Source: Clostridiales bacterium
GTDB taxonomy: Bacteria > Bacillota > Clostridia > Oscillospirales > Oscillospiraceae
DNA: 64,000 nt
Direction: 5' to 3'
NCBI GenBank assembly: GCA_022775085.1
Contig: JALFJQ010000043.1
Span: 31,337 to 95,336 of the forward strand
Positions 28,566 through 34,132 of the stretch are shown piece after piece. Within the stretch, counting starts at the first letter, position 1, and the number at the start of each line of letters is the position of its first letter. The position numbers were made by a program, and so were the translations under genes. The notes beneath the pieces are model-generated. The model was not told the origin of the DNA. It did no database searches and was given only the letters and a program-made list of their open reading frames with translations.

Positions 28566-28642
28566 CCGGGTGTGGCGAAGTTTGGTATCGCGCTTGAATG
28601 GGGTTCAAGAGGCCTCGAGTTCGAATCTCGACACTCGGACCA
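28566..28642 (+). tRNA. tRNA-Pro (GGG)
   Basis: Acceptor CCGGGTG/CACTCGG with discriminator A and encoded CCA. D-stem GCGA/TCGC. Anticodon arm CTTGA-ATGGGGT-TCAAG (anticodon GGG, reads CCC). T-arm TCGAG-TTCGAAT-CTCGA. A terminator follows at once. Confidence 0.93.
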
Positions 28643-28680
28643 AAACGGTCAATTTCTTAGGAAATTGGCCGTTTTTCTTA
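28643..28680 (+). terminator. Terminator of tRNA-Pro
   Basis: AAACGGTCAATTTC pairs with GAAATTGGCCGTTT (one G-U) and TTCTTA follows. Confidence 0.8.
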
Positions 28681-28746
28681 TGCTAAAAGCTGTGTGTTTT
28701 TGCTGGATTTTTGAGCGTTGATACCGGGTTGATACGCGGTTGATAC

Positions 28747-28916
28747 TTAAGGCAACGCCGCATAATGGGGCAAGGAAATTCGGCGAGAGATTTTGGCCCA
28801 AGCGAAAGTATGGAAAATGCGGGAATACTGGATGTATTTCCCATTTTTCATGCTGCACGATTGGGGCAAAAGATCCGCCGAAGCCCGCTGCTCCCATTGT
28901 GCGGTGTTGCCTTAAA
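28747..28916. mobile_element. MITE-like hairpin element, copy 1
   Basis: A 170-bp imperfect palindrome with terminal inverted repeats starting TTAAGGCAAC and matching for about 20 bases with a few changes. Nearly the whole element can fold back on itself; the tip is GTATTCCCGC-type sequence against GGGAAATAC. It encodes no transposase. A diverged copy in opposite orientation lies at 49306-49459. Any short open frames inside it are by-products. Together with the 39-bp repeat and hairpin below, it fills the gene-free interval 28681-29196. Confidence 0.7.
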
Positions 28917-29196: not shown

Positions 29197-29610
29197 CTAC
29201 ATATCCATCGCTGGATTCATATAGTACACATTTTTCTGACTCAGCTTCTCACGAAGCAGTTGTACAGCTTCGCCAAAACGCTGAAAATGCACGATTTCCC
29301 GTTCACGAAGGAACTTGATCACATCATTTACGTCCGGGTCGTCACTGAGGCGCAGGATGTTGTCATAGGTGACCCGCGCTTTCTGCTCAGCGGCCAGGTC
29401 CTCCACAAGATCCGCCATGGGATCACCTTTGACTGCCATACTGGCAGCATTCCAGGGACTGCCTGAAGCGGCTGTGGGATACACACCGATGGTATGGTCA
29501 ACGAAATAAGGTGCAAATCCGGCTTCTTTGATTTGGGAATCATTCAGGCTTCTTGTCAGCTGGTGCACAATCGCGCCGATCATTTCCAGGTGTCCCAGTT
29601 CTTCTGTACC
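29197..29610 (-). CDS. cotJC: Spore coat protein CotJC, 3' part of an interrupted gene
   Basis: Encodes the manganese-catalase-like C-terminal two thirds of CotJC, from GTEELGHLEMIGAIVHQLTR through TIGVYPTAASGSPWNAASM and EDLAAEQKARVTYDNI to REREIVHFQRFGEA and the stop. There is no start codon or ribosome site of its own. The reading frame opens at the core GGTACAG (29604-29610). There it would join the 5' part at 33421-33610 in frame, giving 198 residues, close to the Bacillus protein (189). Separated from the rest by the 3.8-kb recombinase element. Confidence 0.92.
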   Translation of the reverse strand, partial: GTEELGHLEMIGAIVHQLTRSLNDSQIKEAGFAPYFVDHTIGVYPTAASGSPWNAASMAVKGDPMADLVEDLAAEQKARVTYDNILRLSDDPDVNDVIKFLREREIVHFQRFGEAVQLLREKLSQKNVYYMNPAMDM

Positions 29611-29636
29611 TATATTGGCAGCAAAAAGGCACCCAC
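29604..29636. other. Left attachment site of the cotJC element
   Basis: Core CTGTACC, then 17 bases, then the arm GGCACCCAC (29628-29636). This arm is the exact complement of GTGGGTGCC at the right attachment site. In the circle the two arms would flank the core. Confidence 0.7.
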
Positions 29637-29692
29637 TTAGAAACCAGACGCCGACATTCGTGTTCCTTATTCTGCGGTGATTTGTGTTTCTG

Positions 29693-31273
29693 TCAGATAT
29701 TCAACAGGTCGCTGTAAGCCTTCAGCGCACCGTCGGTGTCATGGGCCAGAACCTTCTTAGCCAGAACCTTACCCAGCTGAACGCCTTCCTGATCGAAGGA
29801 GTTGATGTTCCAGGCAAAGCCCTGATACATGACCTTGTTCTCAAAGTGAGCAAGCAGAGCGCCCACAGCCTGGGGGGTCAGCTTGTCGCCGATGATGATG
29901 GAGGAGGGACGGCCGCCCTCGAACTTCTTGTTCAGATTGGTGTCATCCTTGCCGCAGGCGAAGGCTACAATCTGCGCGGCAACATTGGCGCACAGCTTCT
30001 GCTGGCTTGTGCTGCCTTGAATCAGGACATCGCTGCCCATCTGACTGTTGCGGAAGCCGACGAACTGCAGGGGGATAATGTTCGTGCCCTGATGCAGCAG
30101 CTGATAGAAGGAGTGTTGACCGTTGGTGCCGGGCTCGCCAAAGATGACGGGGCCGGTAACGTAGTTTACTGGCTCACCGAAGCGGTTGACAGACTTGCCG
30201 TTACTCTCCATGTCCAGCTGCTGAAGATGGGCGGGGAAACGGCTCAGCGCCTGGGAGTAGGGCAGAACGGCGGTGGTGGGGTAACCCAGCACATTGCGCT
30301 CGTAGACGCCGATCAAAGCATCCAGCAGGGCCGCGTTCTTCCGCAGGTCGGGATTCGCTGCCAGCCGGTCAGCCTCGGCAGCACCGCTGAGGAAATCGGC
30401 GAACACCTCGGGGCCAAAGGCAAGCGACAGCACGCAGCCGCCCACGCCGGAGGAAGAGGAGAACCGGCCGCCGATGTAGTCGTCCATGAAGAAAGCAGCC
30501 AGATAGTCGGCTGACTTTGCAAGAGGAGAGGTCTCGGAGGTGACAGCCACCATATGATGGGCCGCATCCAGACCGGCCTCCGCCAGGGCGTTCTTAACAA
30601 AGGATTCGTTGGTCAGAGTCTCCAGCGTGGTGCCGGATTTGGATACCAGGATAAACAGCGTGTGGGCCAGATCCAAGTTGCTCAGGACACCGGCAGCGTC
30701 GTCGGGGTCAACGTTGGAGATGAAGGCAGCCTTCATTTTTAAGGTGTTGTTGACCTTTGCCCAGTTCTCCAGGGCCAGATAGATGGCACGGGGGCCAAGA
30801 TCGGAACCGCCGATGCCGATCTGGCAGACGGTGGTGAACTTCTCGCCGGCAGCATTGGTGATTTCACCGGCGTGAACCTTGTTTGCGAAGTCCGCGACCC
30901 GGTTCTGCTCGCCTACATAGAACTCGCGCTTGTTTACGCCGTCAGCCACCACGTCATCGCCCAGCTGACCCCGGCAAAGGTGGTGCAGCACCAGACGCTT
31001 TTCACCGGTGTTAATCACTTCGCCATTGTACAGCGCGGCAAACTTTTCCACCAGCTGCTGCTCAGCGGCGAATTTCTCGAGAATGGAAAGAATCGCGTCA
31101 TCCACAGGCCGCGCGGCAAAGTTGAAATCCATACCCGCACCCATGGGCACGGTGTAATTCTTCACACGGTTTGCACCGTTTTCACCGCTCATGGCACACG
31201 CGACGCAGACCTTGTCTGCCGCCTGCAGTTCCGAGTAAGCAGCCAGGGTATCCATATTCTTCCAAGTAACCAA
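29693..31273 (-). CDS. pgi: Glucose-6-phosphate isomerase
   Basis: Interconverts glucose-6-phosphate and fructose-6-phosphate. The 526 residues contain the family marks QIGIGGSDLGPRAIYLALE, LFILVSKSGTTLETLTNE, GGRFSSSSGVGG, GEPGTNGQHSFYQLLHQG and the C-terminal FDQEGVQLGKVLAKKV. All expected regions are present, so it looks active. The start is TTG at 31271-31273 with GAGGAGG eight bases upstream. The frame stays open for another 59 codons upstream without a better site. It is carried inside the cotJC-interrupting element, an unusual place for a central glycolytic gene. Confidence 0.95.
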   Translation of the reverse strand: MVTWKNMDTLAAYSELQAADKVCVACAMSGENGANRVKNYTVPMGAGMDFNFAARPVDDAILSILEKFAAEQQLVEKFAALYNGEVINTGEKRLVLHHLCRGQLGDDVVADGVNKREFYVGEQNRVADFANKVHAGEITNAAGEKFTTVCQIGIGGSDLGPRAIYLALENWAKVNNTLKMKAAFISNVDPDDAAGVLSNLDLAHTLFILVSKSGTTLETLTNESFVKNALAEAGLDAAHHMVAVTSETSPLAKSADYLAAFFMDDYIGGRFSSSSGVGGCVLSLAFGPEVFADFLSGAAEADRLAANPDLRKNAALLDALIGVYERNVLGYPTTAVLPYSQALSRFPAHLQQLDMESNGKSVNRFGEPVNYVTGPVIFGEPGTNGQHSFYQLLHQGTNIIPLQFVGFRNSQMGSDVLIQGSTSQQKLCANVAAQIVAFACGKDDTNLNKKFEGGRPSSIIIGDKLTPQAVGALLAHFENKVMYQGFAWNINSFDQEGVQLGKVLAKKVLAHDTDGALKAYSDLLNI

Positions 31274-31601
31274 TTTCGTATCCTCCTCGATTTGTTTATC
31301 TGTTTTTTCTGTTTGCATTGTGTCATCTGCTTTAACAGTGCTTATACGTTCTGCCGTTTCCGCATAAACGAAGGTATCGTTACCGGGTTCTGCTTTTGCA
31401 GGACCCAGTAATGTACAAACTTGCAGCACAATTCCCTTATACATTAACACCGGATATTGGAAATGTCAATGCCGGACAGCAAACACACCGGCAGAGAAAA
31501 TGGAACTATGAGAGGACTGCTCCGTACCTGTCTGGAAGTATGAGCCGGGTTCTTATCTGCGCCAAGGAATCATATATCTAACGCAGAAAGGGGAGAGTTG
31601 A

Positions 31602-31823
31602 ATGTATACTACTACGAAATTTGTCCGTGTCGGCAATGATCGGCCCATTACCAGGCAGACCGATCCGGAATTCTATTTTGAATTTCAGCAGGGAGTGCTG
31701 CTTGCTCTGAAGGAGCAGGGAACGCTTACCGAAATGCAATTCAAATATGCGCAGGATGCCCTAAAGGAGCAGCGCCGGGCAATGGCCCTGACTGCAGCTG
31801 GGCAGGGAGGAGAACAACAGTGA
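31602..31823 (+). CDS. Small SHOCT-like protein coupled to the recombinase
   Basis: 73 residues, MYTTTKFVRVGNDRPITRQTD then a helical part with EFQQGVLLALKEQGTLTEMQF and KEQRRAMALTAAG. The last part resembles a SHOCT-type short C-terminal helix pair. The ribosome site is AAGGGGAG. Its stop overlaps the recombinase GTG start, so the two are co-translated. By position it is a candidate recombination directionality factor or regulator of excision (inference). Confidence 0.7.
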   Translation: MYTTTKFVRVGNDRPITRQTDPEFYFEFQQGVLLALKEQGTLTEMQFKYAQDALKEQRRAMALTAAGQGGEQQ

Positions 31824-33388
31824 TCAAAGTGGCAAGCTACTGCCGCGTCTCCACAGACAGTGAAGATCAGGCTAACTCCTTTGAATCACAGCAGCGTTAC
31901 TTCCGCGCGTACATTGAAAGACATCCGGACTGGGAACTGTATGAAATCTATGCTGACGAGGGAACGACCGGCACTTCCACCAAAAAACGCACGCAGTTCA
32001 ACAGAATGATCAACGATGCCTACCGCAGAAAGTTCAACATGATTATCACAAAAGAAGTCAGCCGGTTTTCCAGGAACCTGCTGGATACCATCGCCTATAC
32101 CAGAGAGCTGAAAGCTTTGGGGGTAGGCGTTATTTTTATGAACGACGGCTTTACATCTCTGGACCCGGATGCGGAGCTGCGGCTGTCCATCATGGGCTCC
32201 ATTGCCCAGGAAGAGAGCCGAAAGACCTCCTCCCGTGTCAAATGGGGCCAATCCCGTCAGATGGAGAGGGGAGTCGTATTTGGCACCTCCATGCTGGGAT
32301 ATGACGTCCATGACGGCAAGCTCACCATCAATCCGGAGGGCGCTGAAATTGTCAGAATGATCTTTCAGAAATACGCGGTTGAAAAGAAAGGAACCTCCGC
32401 CATTGCACGGGAATTGCGGGAAGCCGGCATCAAAACGTTCACTGGCAGCGTGATGTGGAACAGCACTTCCATCGTCAGGATTCTGCGGAACGAGAAGTAC
32501 GTCGGAGATTTGATACAAAAGAAGAGTATTACACCGGACTATCTGACGCATGAGAAAAAGAGAAACACCGGTCAGGAGGAACGGATTATCATTCGGGATC
32601 ATCATAAGCCAATCATTGAAAGGGCTTTGTGGAACTCGGCACAGGAAGAGCTTACGCGAAGGAATCGGAACCGATCCGGTTCTTCCGGCCATTCCACCAG
32701 ATATGTATTTTCCGGGAAAATGGTCTGTGCTGAGTGTGGCGCCAGATTTGTTTCAAGACGCAAAACCAGAAAAAGCGGGTCTTCCTATATGCGATGGGGA
32801 TGCTATACGGCATCCCGTTTCGGACAAAAACAAACAGATGCCAGGGGAAATGAGATTGGCTGCGATGTTGGAAAGCAAATTCGGGACGATCTTGCTGTGG
32901 AACTATTAACGAAAGTGTTCAAAAGCATTCCTGCCGACTTTGAATGGATCATTCAAAATCTTACGGGCATCGTGGTTTCCGCAATTGCGTCTGAGGCAGA
33001 TCTGCTGGATAACCCGGATCGGCTCAGAAAGCAGATCGACCAGCAGCAAAAGAAAAAAGAGGCCGCCATCGATGCTTTCGCGTCAGGCTTGATAACGAAA
33101 GAGGAACTGCGGCAGGCAAAAGTACAGTACGATGCGAAGATTGCTATGATGAAGAAGAAGCTTTGCGCCTGTCAGCGGGCCCAAATTCCCACTGCGTCAC
33201 AACGGCAATCCGAAATCAGCAGGAGCATCAGGTCAATCGTTTCCTGTGAGGAGTTTTCTGAGCCATTTTATAAGGCGGTTCTCCAGACAATGGTTGTACA
33301 TAAGGATGGCACATTGGAAATCAAGATCAACCATCTTCCCCAAACATGGGTCTACTGCCTGATTTATCACAGAGCAAATCCAGAATAA
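31820..33388 (+). CDS. Large serine recombinase of the cotJC element
   Basis: 522 residues. The resolvase domain starts VASYCRVSTDSEDQANSFESQ with the nucleophile Ser11, and further has EGTTGTSTKKRTQFN, ITKEVSRFSRN and GSIAQEESRKTSSRVKWG. The recombinase domain covers about 160-280 (NPEGAEIVRMIF, SIVRILRNEKYVGD). A zinc ribbon follows (MVCAECGARF ... WGCYTA ... GCDVG, about 300-360). A coiled coil lies at about 390-450. This is the SpoIVCA/TnpX architecture. GTG start with AGGAG upstream, coupled to the small gene. Its 3' end abuts the right attachment arm. Confidence 0.93.
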   Translation: MIKVASYCRVSTDSEDQANSFESQQRYFRAYIERHPDWELYEIYADEGTTGTSTKKRTQFNRMINDAYRRKFNMIITKEVSRFSRNLLDTIAYTRELKALGVGVIFMNDGFTSLDPDAELRLSIMGSIAQEESRKTSSRVKWGQSRQMERGVVFGTSMLGYDVHDGKLTINPEGAEIVRMIFQKYAVEKKGTSAIARELREAGIKTFTGSVMWNSTSIVRILRNEKYVGDLIQKKSITPDYLTHEKKRNTGQEERIIIRDHHKPIIERALWNSAQEELTRRNRNRSGSSGHSTRYVFSGKMVCAECGARFVSRRKTRKSGSSYMRWGCYTASRFGQKQTDARGNEIGCDVGKQIRDDLAVELLTKVFKSIPADFEWIIQNLTGIVVSAIASEADLLDNPDRLRKQIDQQQKKKEAAIDAFASGLITKEELRQAKVQYDAKIAMMKKKLCACQRAQIPTASQRQSEISRSIRSIVSCEEFSEPFYKAVLQTMVVHKDGTLEIKINHLPQTWVYCLIYHRANPE

Positions 33389-33399
33389 CTGTGTTCCGC

Positions 33400-33427
33400 G
33401 TGGGTGCCGTTCCATTTCGCCTGTACC
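33400..33427. other. Right attachment site of the cotJC element
   Basis: Arm GTGGGTGCC (33400-33408), 12 bases, then core CTGTACC (33421-33427). Joined to the left site in a circle, the two 9-bp arms sit symmetrically, 18 bases on each side of a centre at the last C-C step of the core. The total is about 54 bp, the size of a serine-recombinase attP. Confidence 0.7.
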
Positions 33428-33610
33428 GATGTCCGTCAGCAGTCCTTTCAGCTCGTCAAAGGGCATGGAGTAGCGCTGGGATAAATAGCGCAGCGAAGCA
33501 CCCAGCTCACCGTCAGGCCCGCCGTACTGGGAAATGATGATCGCAGCCAGCCGGGGATTGGTATTTGCGATTTTTACGGGATATTGCAGCTTCTTGTCAT
33601 ATACAAACAT
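33421..33610 (-). CDS. cotJC: Spore coat protein CotJC, 5' part of an interrupted gene
   Basis: The first 63 codons of CotJC: MFVYDKKLQYPVKIANTNPR, LAAIIISQYGGPDGELGASL, RYLSQRYSMPFDELKGLL, then TDIGT. In the present chromosome the frame runs on into the element as GEMERHPRGTQLF and stops at 33233, which is not CotJC. At the core GGTACAG it can rejoin the 3' part (29197-29610) in frame. ATG with AAGGAGG, two bases after the cotJA-cotJB stop, so it is the last gene of the cotJ operon. Confidence 0.92.
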
Positions 33611-33612
33611 GA

Positions 33613-34059
33613 TTACGCCTCCTTATTTCCGCAGTATTCCCAGGGCCATGGGTCATCCAGCCAGCTGTAGCCCTCGGATTCAGACGGCATCCCATGGTTA
33701 AGAGGGCCGTGCCTGCGGATATACAGCTGTCTGCATTTATCGTACATCTGCTGGTATTCCCGGTACAGTGACAGCGCCTCCATATCGTCCCTGTGCGTGT
33801 CCAAATAAAGCGCCAGCTCCTGCACGGCAAAGCCCAGCGCCTGCAGTTCCGCCAGCGTGGTCGGCGGCAGCTCGGATTGGTTGACCATCCCCATAAATGG
33901 AAGATCCAGACCGGGGAAAAGGGTGCCCCGCACCAGTCCCTTTTTCGCTTCATATCTTGCGGGGTTTTCCATCTGGAAGGGAACGTAAGGATTCGCCAGG
34001 GGTGCCATGGCAGGTAAACGTCCGTCCCGATAGGACGGCTCCTGAGTTTGTCTGTCCAA
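33613..34059 (-). CDS. cotJAB: Fused spore coat proteins CotJA-CotJB
   Basis: One frame of 148 residues joins two coat proteins that are separate in Bacillus. Residues about 20-65 are CotJA-like (PLANPYVPFQME, GLVRGTLFPGLDLPFMG). Residues about 68-145 are CotJB-like (LAELQALGFAVQELALYLDT, YREYQQMYDKCRQLYIRRHG, DDPWPWEY). No stop lies between. The start is TTG at 34057-34059, eight bases after AGGAGG. An ATG near the ribosome site is out of frame. A SigE-like promoter precedes it, and cotJC follows with overlapping signals. Confidence 0.85.
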   Translation of the reverse strand: MDRQTQEPSYRDGRLPAMAPLANPYVPFQMENPARYEAKKGLVRGTLFPGLDLPFMGMVNQSELPPTTLAELQALGFAVQELALYLDTHRDDMEALSLYREYQQMYDKCRQLYIRRHGPLNHGMPSESEGYSWLDDPWPWEYCGNKEA

Positions 34060-34103: not shown

Positions 34104-34132
34104 ATACTATGTTTTCTCCCGGCGGGATGTTC
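34104..34132 (-). promoter_or_regulatory. Candidate SigE promoter of the cotJ operon
   Basis: GAACATC, 14-base spacer, CATAGTAT on the minus strand. This resembles the mother-cell SigE pattern (KMATATT, 14 bases, CATACAAT). cotJ is SigE-controlled in Bacillus. Confidence 0.5.

Follow-up and report, generated by a model that had tools for sequence, protein, structure and literature searches.

Serine-recombinase elements that split the spore coat gene cotJC at several sites in Oscillospirales and are predicted to excise during sporulation

How can a spore-forming bacterium make a coat protein from a gene that its chromosome carries in two pieces? This question is raised by a 64,000-nucleotide stretch of a Clostridiales genome (order Oscillospirales; assembly GCA_022775085.1, contig JALFJQ010000043.1, positions 31,337 to 95,336), which we call the window and in which cotJC, which we take to be a spore coat gene, is split by a 3.8-kb element carrying a large serine recombinase. 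Our prediction is that, when a cell sporulates, the element leaves the chromosome of the mother cell and a cotJC of 198 codons is thereby restored, a reading to which we give a probability of about 0.82. A first-pass annotation of the window, made from its letters and open reading frames, had described same-strand cotJC halves some 3.8 kb apart, a shared 7-bp core at both ends and a recombinase between them, and all three were found at the locus.

The 5′ part of cotJC (33421..33610, minus strand) comprises codons 1-63 and one further base and ends in the core GGTACAG, and the 3′ part (29197..29610, minus strand) runs from the core to the stop codon; both halves match PF05067 above cut-off. The 7-bp core, which reads CTGTACC on the plus strand, lies at 33421..33427 at the end of the 5′ part and at 29604..29610 at the start of the 3′ part, in each case on the minus strand. 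In plus-strand coordinates these are the right and left attachment (att) sites of an element that measures 3,817 bp core to core, sits within the coding sequence of cotJC and cuts it after codon 63. When the pieces are joined at GGTACAG, an open frame of 198 amino acids results that reads through IGTEELG, as had been predicted (junction context LLTDIGTEELGHLEM). The recombinase between them (31820..33388, plus strand, GTG start) is 522 amino acids long, with an intact frame and all of the Resolvase N-terminal, Recombinase and zinc-ribbon domains (PF00239, PF07508 and PF13408). No second cotJC was found in the genome to which the window belongs (82 contigs, 98.8% complete), where the family is otherwise represented only by a manganese (Mn)-catalase paralogue, a 223-residue open reading frame on contig C29 that is 36% identical. 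A second intact copy together with a decayed recombinase, which the annotation had named as evidence against its reading, is thus not seen. It had also suggested looking for an uninterrupted cotJC in relatives, and in a close relative, G053 (locus L161), the gene reads through the window's cut site with no element in it.

Two further genes lie inside the element, neither of them mentioned in the first-pass annotation. One is pgi, for glucose-6-phosphate isomerase (29693..31276, minus strand; NF010695, 793 bits), which we regard as cargo. The other is a 73-residue open reading frame (31602..31823, plus strand) that overlaps the recombinase start by 4 bases. A Pfam scan assigned it to no family; its structure model is a two-helix hairpin (mean predicted local distance difference test score, pLDDT, 75), and a fold search with this model gave no useful structural match (best E 0.75). 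Because of the analogy with the skin element of C. difficile, the small frame is a candidate recombination directionality factor, and the frames found just before related recombinases are taken as such factors on the same analogy. Just inside the right end of the element stands GTGGGTGCC (33400..33408, plus strand), and a matching inverted copy stands inside the left end (29628..29636, minus strand; GGCACCCAC on the plus strand). Related arms occur in other elements of the same class, and the inverted pair is as would be expected of the two arms of one attP site.

The split gene, the core, the intact recombinase frame, the in-frame join and the unsplit gene in G053 are the observed starting point for the following scheme. 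The recombinase would have inserted the element by recombining attP with attB, and the element would stay in place in growing cells. In the mother cell, a promoter of the sigma-E/sigma-K type would drive the 73-residue frame together with the recombinase, and the small protein, acting as a directionality factor, would allow attL to recombine with attR. The resulting circle, with pgi on it, would disappear when the mother cell dies, and the element would persist in the chromosome of the forespore. On this scheme cotJC may serve as a standing dock for islands; among genomes of the order, related elements are observed in the gene at no fewer than five places.

In principle the arrangement resembles skin, which interrupts sigK of C. 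difficile. According to PMC5025042, the skin recombinase, CD1231, is constitutive, and its directionality factor, CD1234, of 72 amino acids, is under the control of sigma-E and SpoIIID. As in skin, the element that interrupts the sporulation gene carries a large serine recombinase together with a small frame (72 residues there, 73 in the window); mother-cell control of that frame is described for skin, whereas for the cotJC elements it is only suggested. Unlike skin, the elements described here have cotJC rather than sigK as their target, the small frame stands directly before the recombinase, and several elements can occupy one gene. In Bacillus cereus, gerE houses gin (PMC5595907), which is also a non-prophage serine-recombinase island in a sporulation gene that is rebuilt in sporulation, but it has three recombinases in 28.6 kb, whereas the window's element has one in 3.8 kb and different recombinase clades strike cotJC, at no fewer than five sites. 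Other gene-intervening elements of spore formers, namely yin in yabG, vfbin in spoVFB and SP-beta in spsM (PMC10747680), have other target genes, and the word cotJ is absent from the main text of PMC10747680 and PMC5595907. The phi027 prophage of C. difficile resembles the cotJC elements in being integrated at a cotJC relative; by its description in PMC11222575, where cotJC is a spore-coat gene, and in PMC12122855, it lies adjacent to that gene and does not split it. The first-pass annotation knew of no description of this arrangement, and the open-access literature gave no recognisable paper on a split cotJC, with most subscription journals and preprints outside its coverage. New within the searched literature are the target, the many sites, the several recombinase clades and the several elements per gene, which does not prove priority. 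Where sigK, spsM, spoVFB, gerE and yabG are known targets of programmed rearrangement in spore formers, here a single coat gene is cut repeatedly.

How common is the split? A genus survey covered 61 genomes, and an order survey covered 102 genomes at least 90% complete, with every cotJC match listed and the classes assigned by reading. In the genus, 48 genomes match cotJC: 16 have it whole and 26 have it in one or more pieces that end near a cut site (nine of these 26 are known from a single piece), with the remaining matches cut by contig ends (two, G038 and G053) or limited to the paralogue or weak (four). In the order, 84 genomes match, with cotJC whole in 52, split in 27, represented by the paralogue in four and ambiguous in G075, in which a later look found a 40-codon piece beside a recombinase like those of site D (below). 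The gene is therefore split in 27 of the 80 order genomes that have it, six of the 27 being known from one piece (G112, G147, G127, G133, G061 and G081); among the 52 whole genes are that of G124, which has a stop within the match, and a small number whose end falls at codon 175-185; a site-E split may be present in some of these. Of the order genomes sampled that bear cotJC, about a third have it cut, by several recombinase clades. SpoIVA, taken as a control, was found in 58 of the 61 genus genomes, whole in 55 and partial in three (G004 and G045, at contig ends, and G047), and in 93 of the 102 order genomes with one match each and none split, although the matches in G065 and G137 are shorter, the latter at a contig end. 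Of 14 Mn-catalase paralogue rows in the order (36-39% identity), 13 span codon 1 to at least 176, and the fourteenth, G075:C14, covers 1-86.

That the splits are artefacts of assembly is hardly credible, even though most of the genomes are drafts or metagenome-assembled. The gene is split inside contigs of 2.2, 2.3 and 1.55 Mb (G247, G200 and G093) and in two scaffolds (MT839280.1 and MT837874.1) that belong to another data set, from human faeces; matching att arms occur in many of the elements, and SpoIVA is unsplit in the same genomes, being present in 26 of the 27 split order genomes.

Across the order, cotJC is cut at five or more sites. Site A, the window's class, lies at codons 61-64 with a core around GGTACAG; site B at codons 133-136 with a core around GCAGCAGA; site C at codon 51 with core TTCGACGA, in G060 only, where the halves are on two contigs; site D at codons 28-32; and site E at codon 172 with a core around GCTTTGG, in G093 and G246. 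G009 has a further cut near codon 65-66. Elements of one site class have palindromic arms in common at their ends, for example GGGTGCCATTTTGA / TCAATTTGACACCC at A and AGGTTGC / GCAACCT at B. The cut codons are conserved and lie near the presumed metal-binding residues.

If these pieces are parts of one gene, they should join in frame. Pairs with both halves numbered 24 (14 from the genus and 10 from the order, single-half loci being excluded), and all 24 yield open frames, of 180-247 amino acids. Since each junction was picked among the shared runs by best identity, the frame, rather than the choice of base, is the test. The shared run at the junction is at least 4 bp in 19 pairs and 2-3 bp in G054, G019, G052, G024 and G241; the join in G207 has a 3-bp run only and loses two residues, and its junction is accordingly not settled. 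Some genes are cut more than once. G088 carries cuts at A and B that join to 201 amino acids, and cuts at D and A join to 198 in G082 and, over three contigs, to 205 in G104. In G093, cotJC lies in four pieces on one 1.55-Mb contig, interrupted at A, B and E by three elements of about 11.6, 5.6 and 7.5 kb, and joins at GGTACCGAAG, CGCAGCAGA and CGCTTTGGCGA give a single frame of 210 amino acids.

The recombinases are sorted by cut site. In a tree of 35 rows, made before the later loci and those of site E were collected, the site-B recombinases fall on one side of a branch with support 100/100 and the site-D ones likewise with 100/99. The site-A recombinases form one group (100/99) that includes the window's recombinase and L163, a second copy of it; the sole site-A row outside is a second, 217-residue recombinase in G072. 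Recombinases beside site-E pieces (L257 in G241, L265 in G246, L241/L256 in G093 and L263 in G214) match, among the site-A, B, C and D queries, the site-C one, at 33-52% identity. Of 247 order genomes, 39 contain matches to the window's recombinase at E <=1e-90, 44 in all, and a cotJC piece lies in the fetched region around 35 of the 44 and around 28 of the best 29. The arrangement in the window is not a chance one: related recombinases adjoin cotJC pieces in many other genomes of the order. In a phage collection, the two best recombinase records, MT839280.1 (L198) and MT837874.1 (L199), are scaffolds from human faeces, and in both the recombinase abuts a cotJC piece. They are deposited as Bacteriophage sp. 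and look like bacterial cotJC loci. The possibility that MT839280.1 (4.4 kb) is an excised circle was rejected, as it has no terminal repeat and is a cotJC locus; MT837325.1 has no cotJC match, and recombinase peptide patterns searched in viral contigs gave none.

Are the pieces used? Median ratios of nonsynonymous to synonymous substitution (dN/dS) are 0.046-0.094 for split and unsplit cotJC alike, with dS near saturation. The window (site A) and G052 (site B) differ by 8 nonsynonymous and 83 synonymous changes over 190 codons, and the window and the unsplit G053 by 7 and 54 over 133 codons. Pieces that are never joined would hardly be held under such purifying selection, which argues that the cotJC pieces are in use.

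If excision is tied to sporulation, signs of its control may lie before the candidate directionality factors. A small frame with a ribosome-binding site, required by our filter, precedes 31 of 41 site-A recombinase entries; two of these had been picked wrongly and were discarded, which leaves 29, of 52-85 residues. CATAnnnT, the -10 sequence shared by sigma-E and sigma-K, is present 14-60 bases ahead of the small-frame start codon in 15 of 28 non-redundant site-A elements, and in 12 of the 15 it stands at -27 to -33. In 2000 shuffles the mean count was 1.4 and the highest 7, and no permuted word exceeded 6. At site B, an unlike small frame (41-54 residues) precedes 11 of 18 recombinase entries, with CATAnnnT before 7 of the 11, a count made without a shuffled control. 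The frame before the site-C recombinase also has CATAnnnT. Upstream of the cotJ operon itself, CATAGTAT (34104..34111, minus strand) is a -10 of mother-cell type, and similar boxes precede the operon in the six relatives whose upstream region was compared. According to PMC3789822, the -10 sequences of sigma-E and sigma-K are very similar, and a C. difficile sigK mutant has lowered expression of the cotCB and cotD operons.

These boxes bear on a second explanation, that of a reversible switch independent of sporulation, in which some growing cells excise the element in the manner of active lysogeny and yield CotJC when they later sporulate. Some recombinases seem, by eye, to own a sigma-A-like promoter, and the window's close relatives are found in differing states (unsplit in G053, cut at A in the window and at B in G052, and cut twice in G009). 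Mother-cell-type -10 boxes nevertheless precede small frames of two unlike families, and G038, a genome in which both forms might have been present, has no third contig to support them; we consider such a switch very unlikely. In five elements (L187, L209, L210, L211 and L156), 160-250 bases separate the small frame from the recombinase, with an apparent sigma-A-type promoter, again by eye. The word ACATTCG occurs in several of these gaps, and it looks as if frame and recombinase were separately controlled there.

The first-pass annotation had further proposed that cotJC is under the developmental control established for sigK. This has gained comparative support, from the recurrent cuts, the unsplit control gene, the purifying selection and the mother-cell-type boxes; excision itself is still deduced from sequence, and this is the first of several points that weigh against excision in sporulating cells. 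The two halves in G154 are on the same strand of a single contig (C1, 198617-198805 and 873266-873643), separated by about 675 kb, and although they join on paper to 185 amino acids, their order is beyond repair by one excision. Joined and split forms were sought side by side in G038 and G062, and neither assembly shows both: an 89-base contig-end overlap at site B in G038 was rejected because the 89-mer occurs in two contigs only, and a 141-base overlap in G062 because it begins 13 bases before the core. The CATAnnnT motif was picked after the site-A upstream regions had been viewed, and was fixed before site B was examined; the window's own box, CATATATC (31571..31578, plus strand), is one base off this pattern, and directly before the site-D recombinases neither a small frame nor a CATAnnnT box was found. 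Four of the 29 kept small frames (L157, L178, L186 and L222) have low scores when compared with that of the window, to which they may not be related. No cotJC lies near nine of the 44 recombinase matches (G217:C75, G240:C10, two in G196, G108, G203:326829, G258, G202 and G305), the similarity in G258, G202 and G305 ending after about 337-371 residues. Among viral contigs no att patterns were found, with patterns that fit other site-A elements and not the window's ends. G127 is split yet has no SpoIVA match, dS is at least 0.94 in every close comparison, and several cotJC pieces stop at contig ends in genomes that are mostly drafts.

Some of these points would suit a plain parasitic insertion, in which a site-specific island inactivated a dispensable cotJC and nothing is rebuilt. 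Excision is a prediction from sequence, G154 could not be mended by simple excision, 18 of the 102 order genomes have no cotJC match, and redundancy among coat catalases has been suggested for C. difficile (PMC11222575). Against such an insertion, the pieces remain open and under strong purifying selection, mother-cell-type boxes precede many of the small frames, and the G093 gene, with three elements in it, is open once joined, where a dead gene would decay. We regard it as unlikely, and excision in the mother cell as the better account.

Across the order, it is somewhat probable that cotJC is a gene in pieces, with at least five classes of island that behave like removable introns and are spliced out at the DNA level for each spore, and that it offers a safe harbour for accessory DNA. 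If islands leave only a cell that is dying, they would be cheap for the host and could carry lasting cargo such as CRISPR-Cas, restriction, secretion-like and metabolic genes. In a sample of 26 distinct proteins from eight larger elements, many of whose frames lie outside the scan, none matched a phage-structural family and several hits were to families of unknown function. A prophage identity is unsupported by the proteins sampled, and in the window's element the recognised genes are pgi, the small frame and the recombinase, with no phage structural or lysis gene in a scan that did not include PHROGs. The 16-kb element of G203 (L179, 2801-19400) carries type I-C cas3, cas5c, cas8c, cas7c, cas4c and cas1c beside a repeat family of 38 copies, and on excision this CRISPR-Cas operon and array would leave the mother cell. 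The G097 element has type I restriction-modification genes; the 30-kb element of G055 encodes FHA, PASTA-kinase and FtsK-FHA proteins, which we read as secretion-like; L123 encodes ABC-transporter and Y-family-polymerase proteins, and L252 a GatZ/KbaZ-like protein. Through these loci the way in which mobile islands become tied to host development can be tested, and they are a source of many sets of recombinases, att sites and candidate directionality factors to compare. They also call for caution in annotation, where a cotJC that is probably in use may be scored as missing or broken.

Upstream of cotJC in the window lies a fused frame (33613..34059, minus strand, predicted TTG start) that presumably corresponds to cotJA and cotJB. 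In G053, pgi (L162:2449-4043) lies outside cotJC, between a tRNA-Pro gene and the cotJC 3′ end and in the opposite orientation to that in the window, so that the window's element contains a gene that in G053 neighbours cotJC on the chromosome. The window's pgi has ACG in place of the ATG start of G053, with a possible TTG start two codons on. The idea that it is the sole isomerase gene, and hence an addiction gene, was rejected, since contig C58 carries a second PGI-family frame, of 438 amino acids. One inversion is insufficient to account for the move of pgi between the two layouts. About 20 bases of the tRNA-Pro 3′ end occur twice in G053 (L162:1804-2052), with about 150 bases between them, and once in the window (28566-28747).

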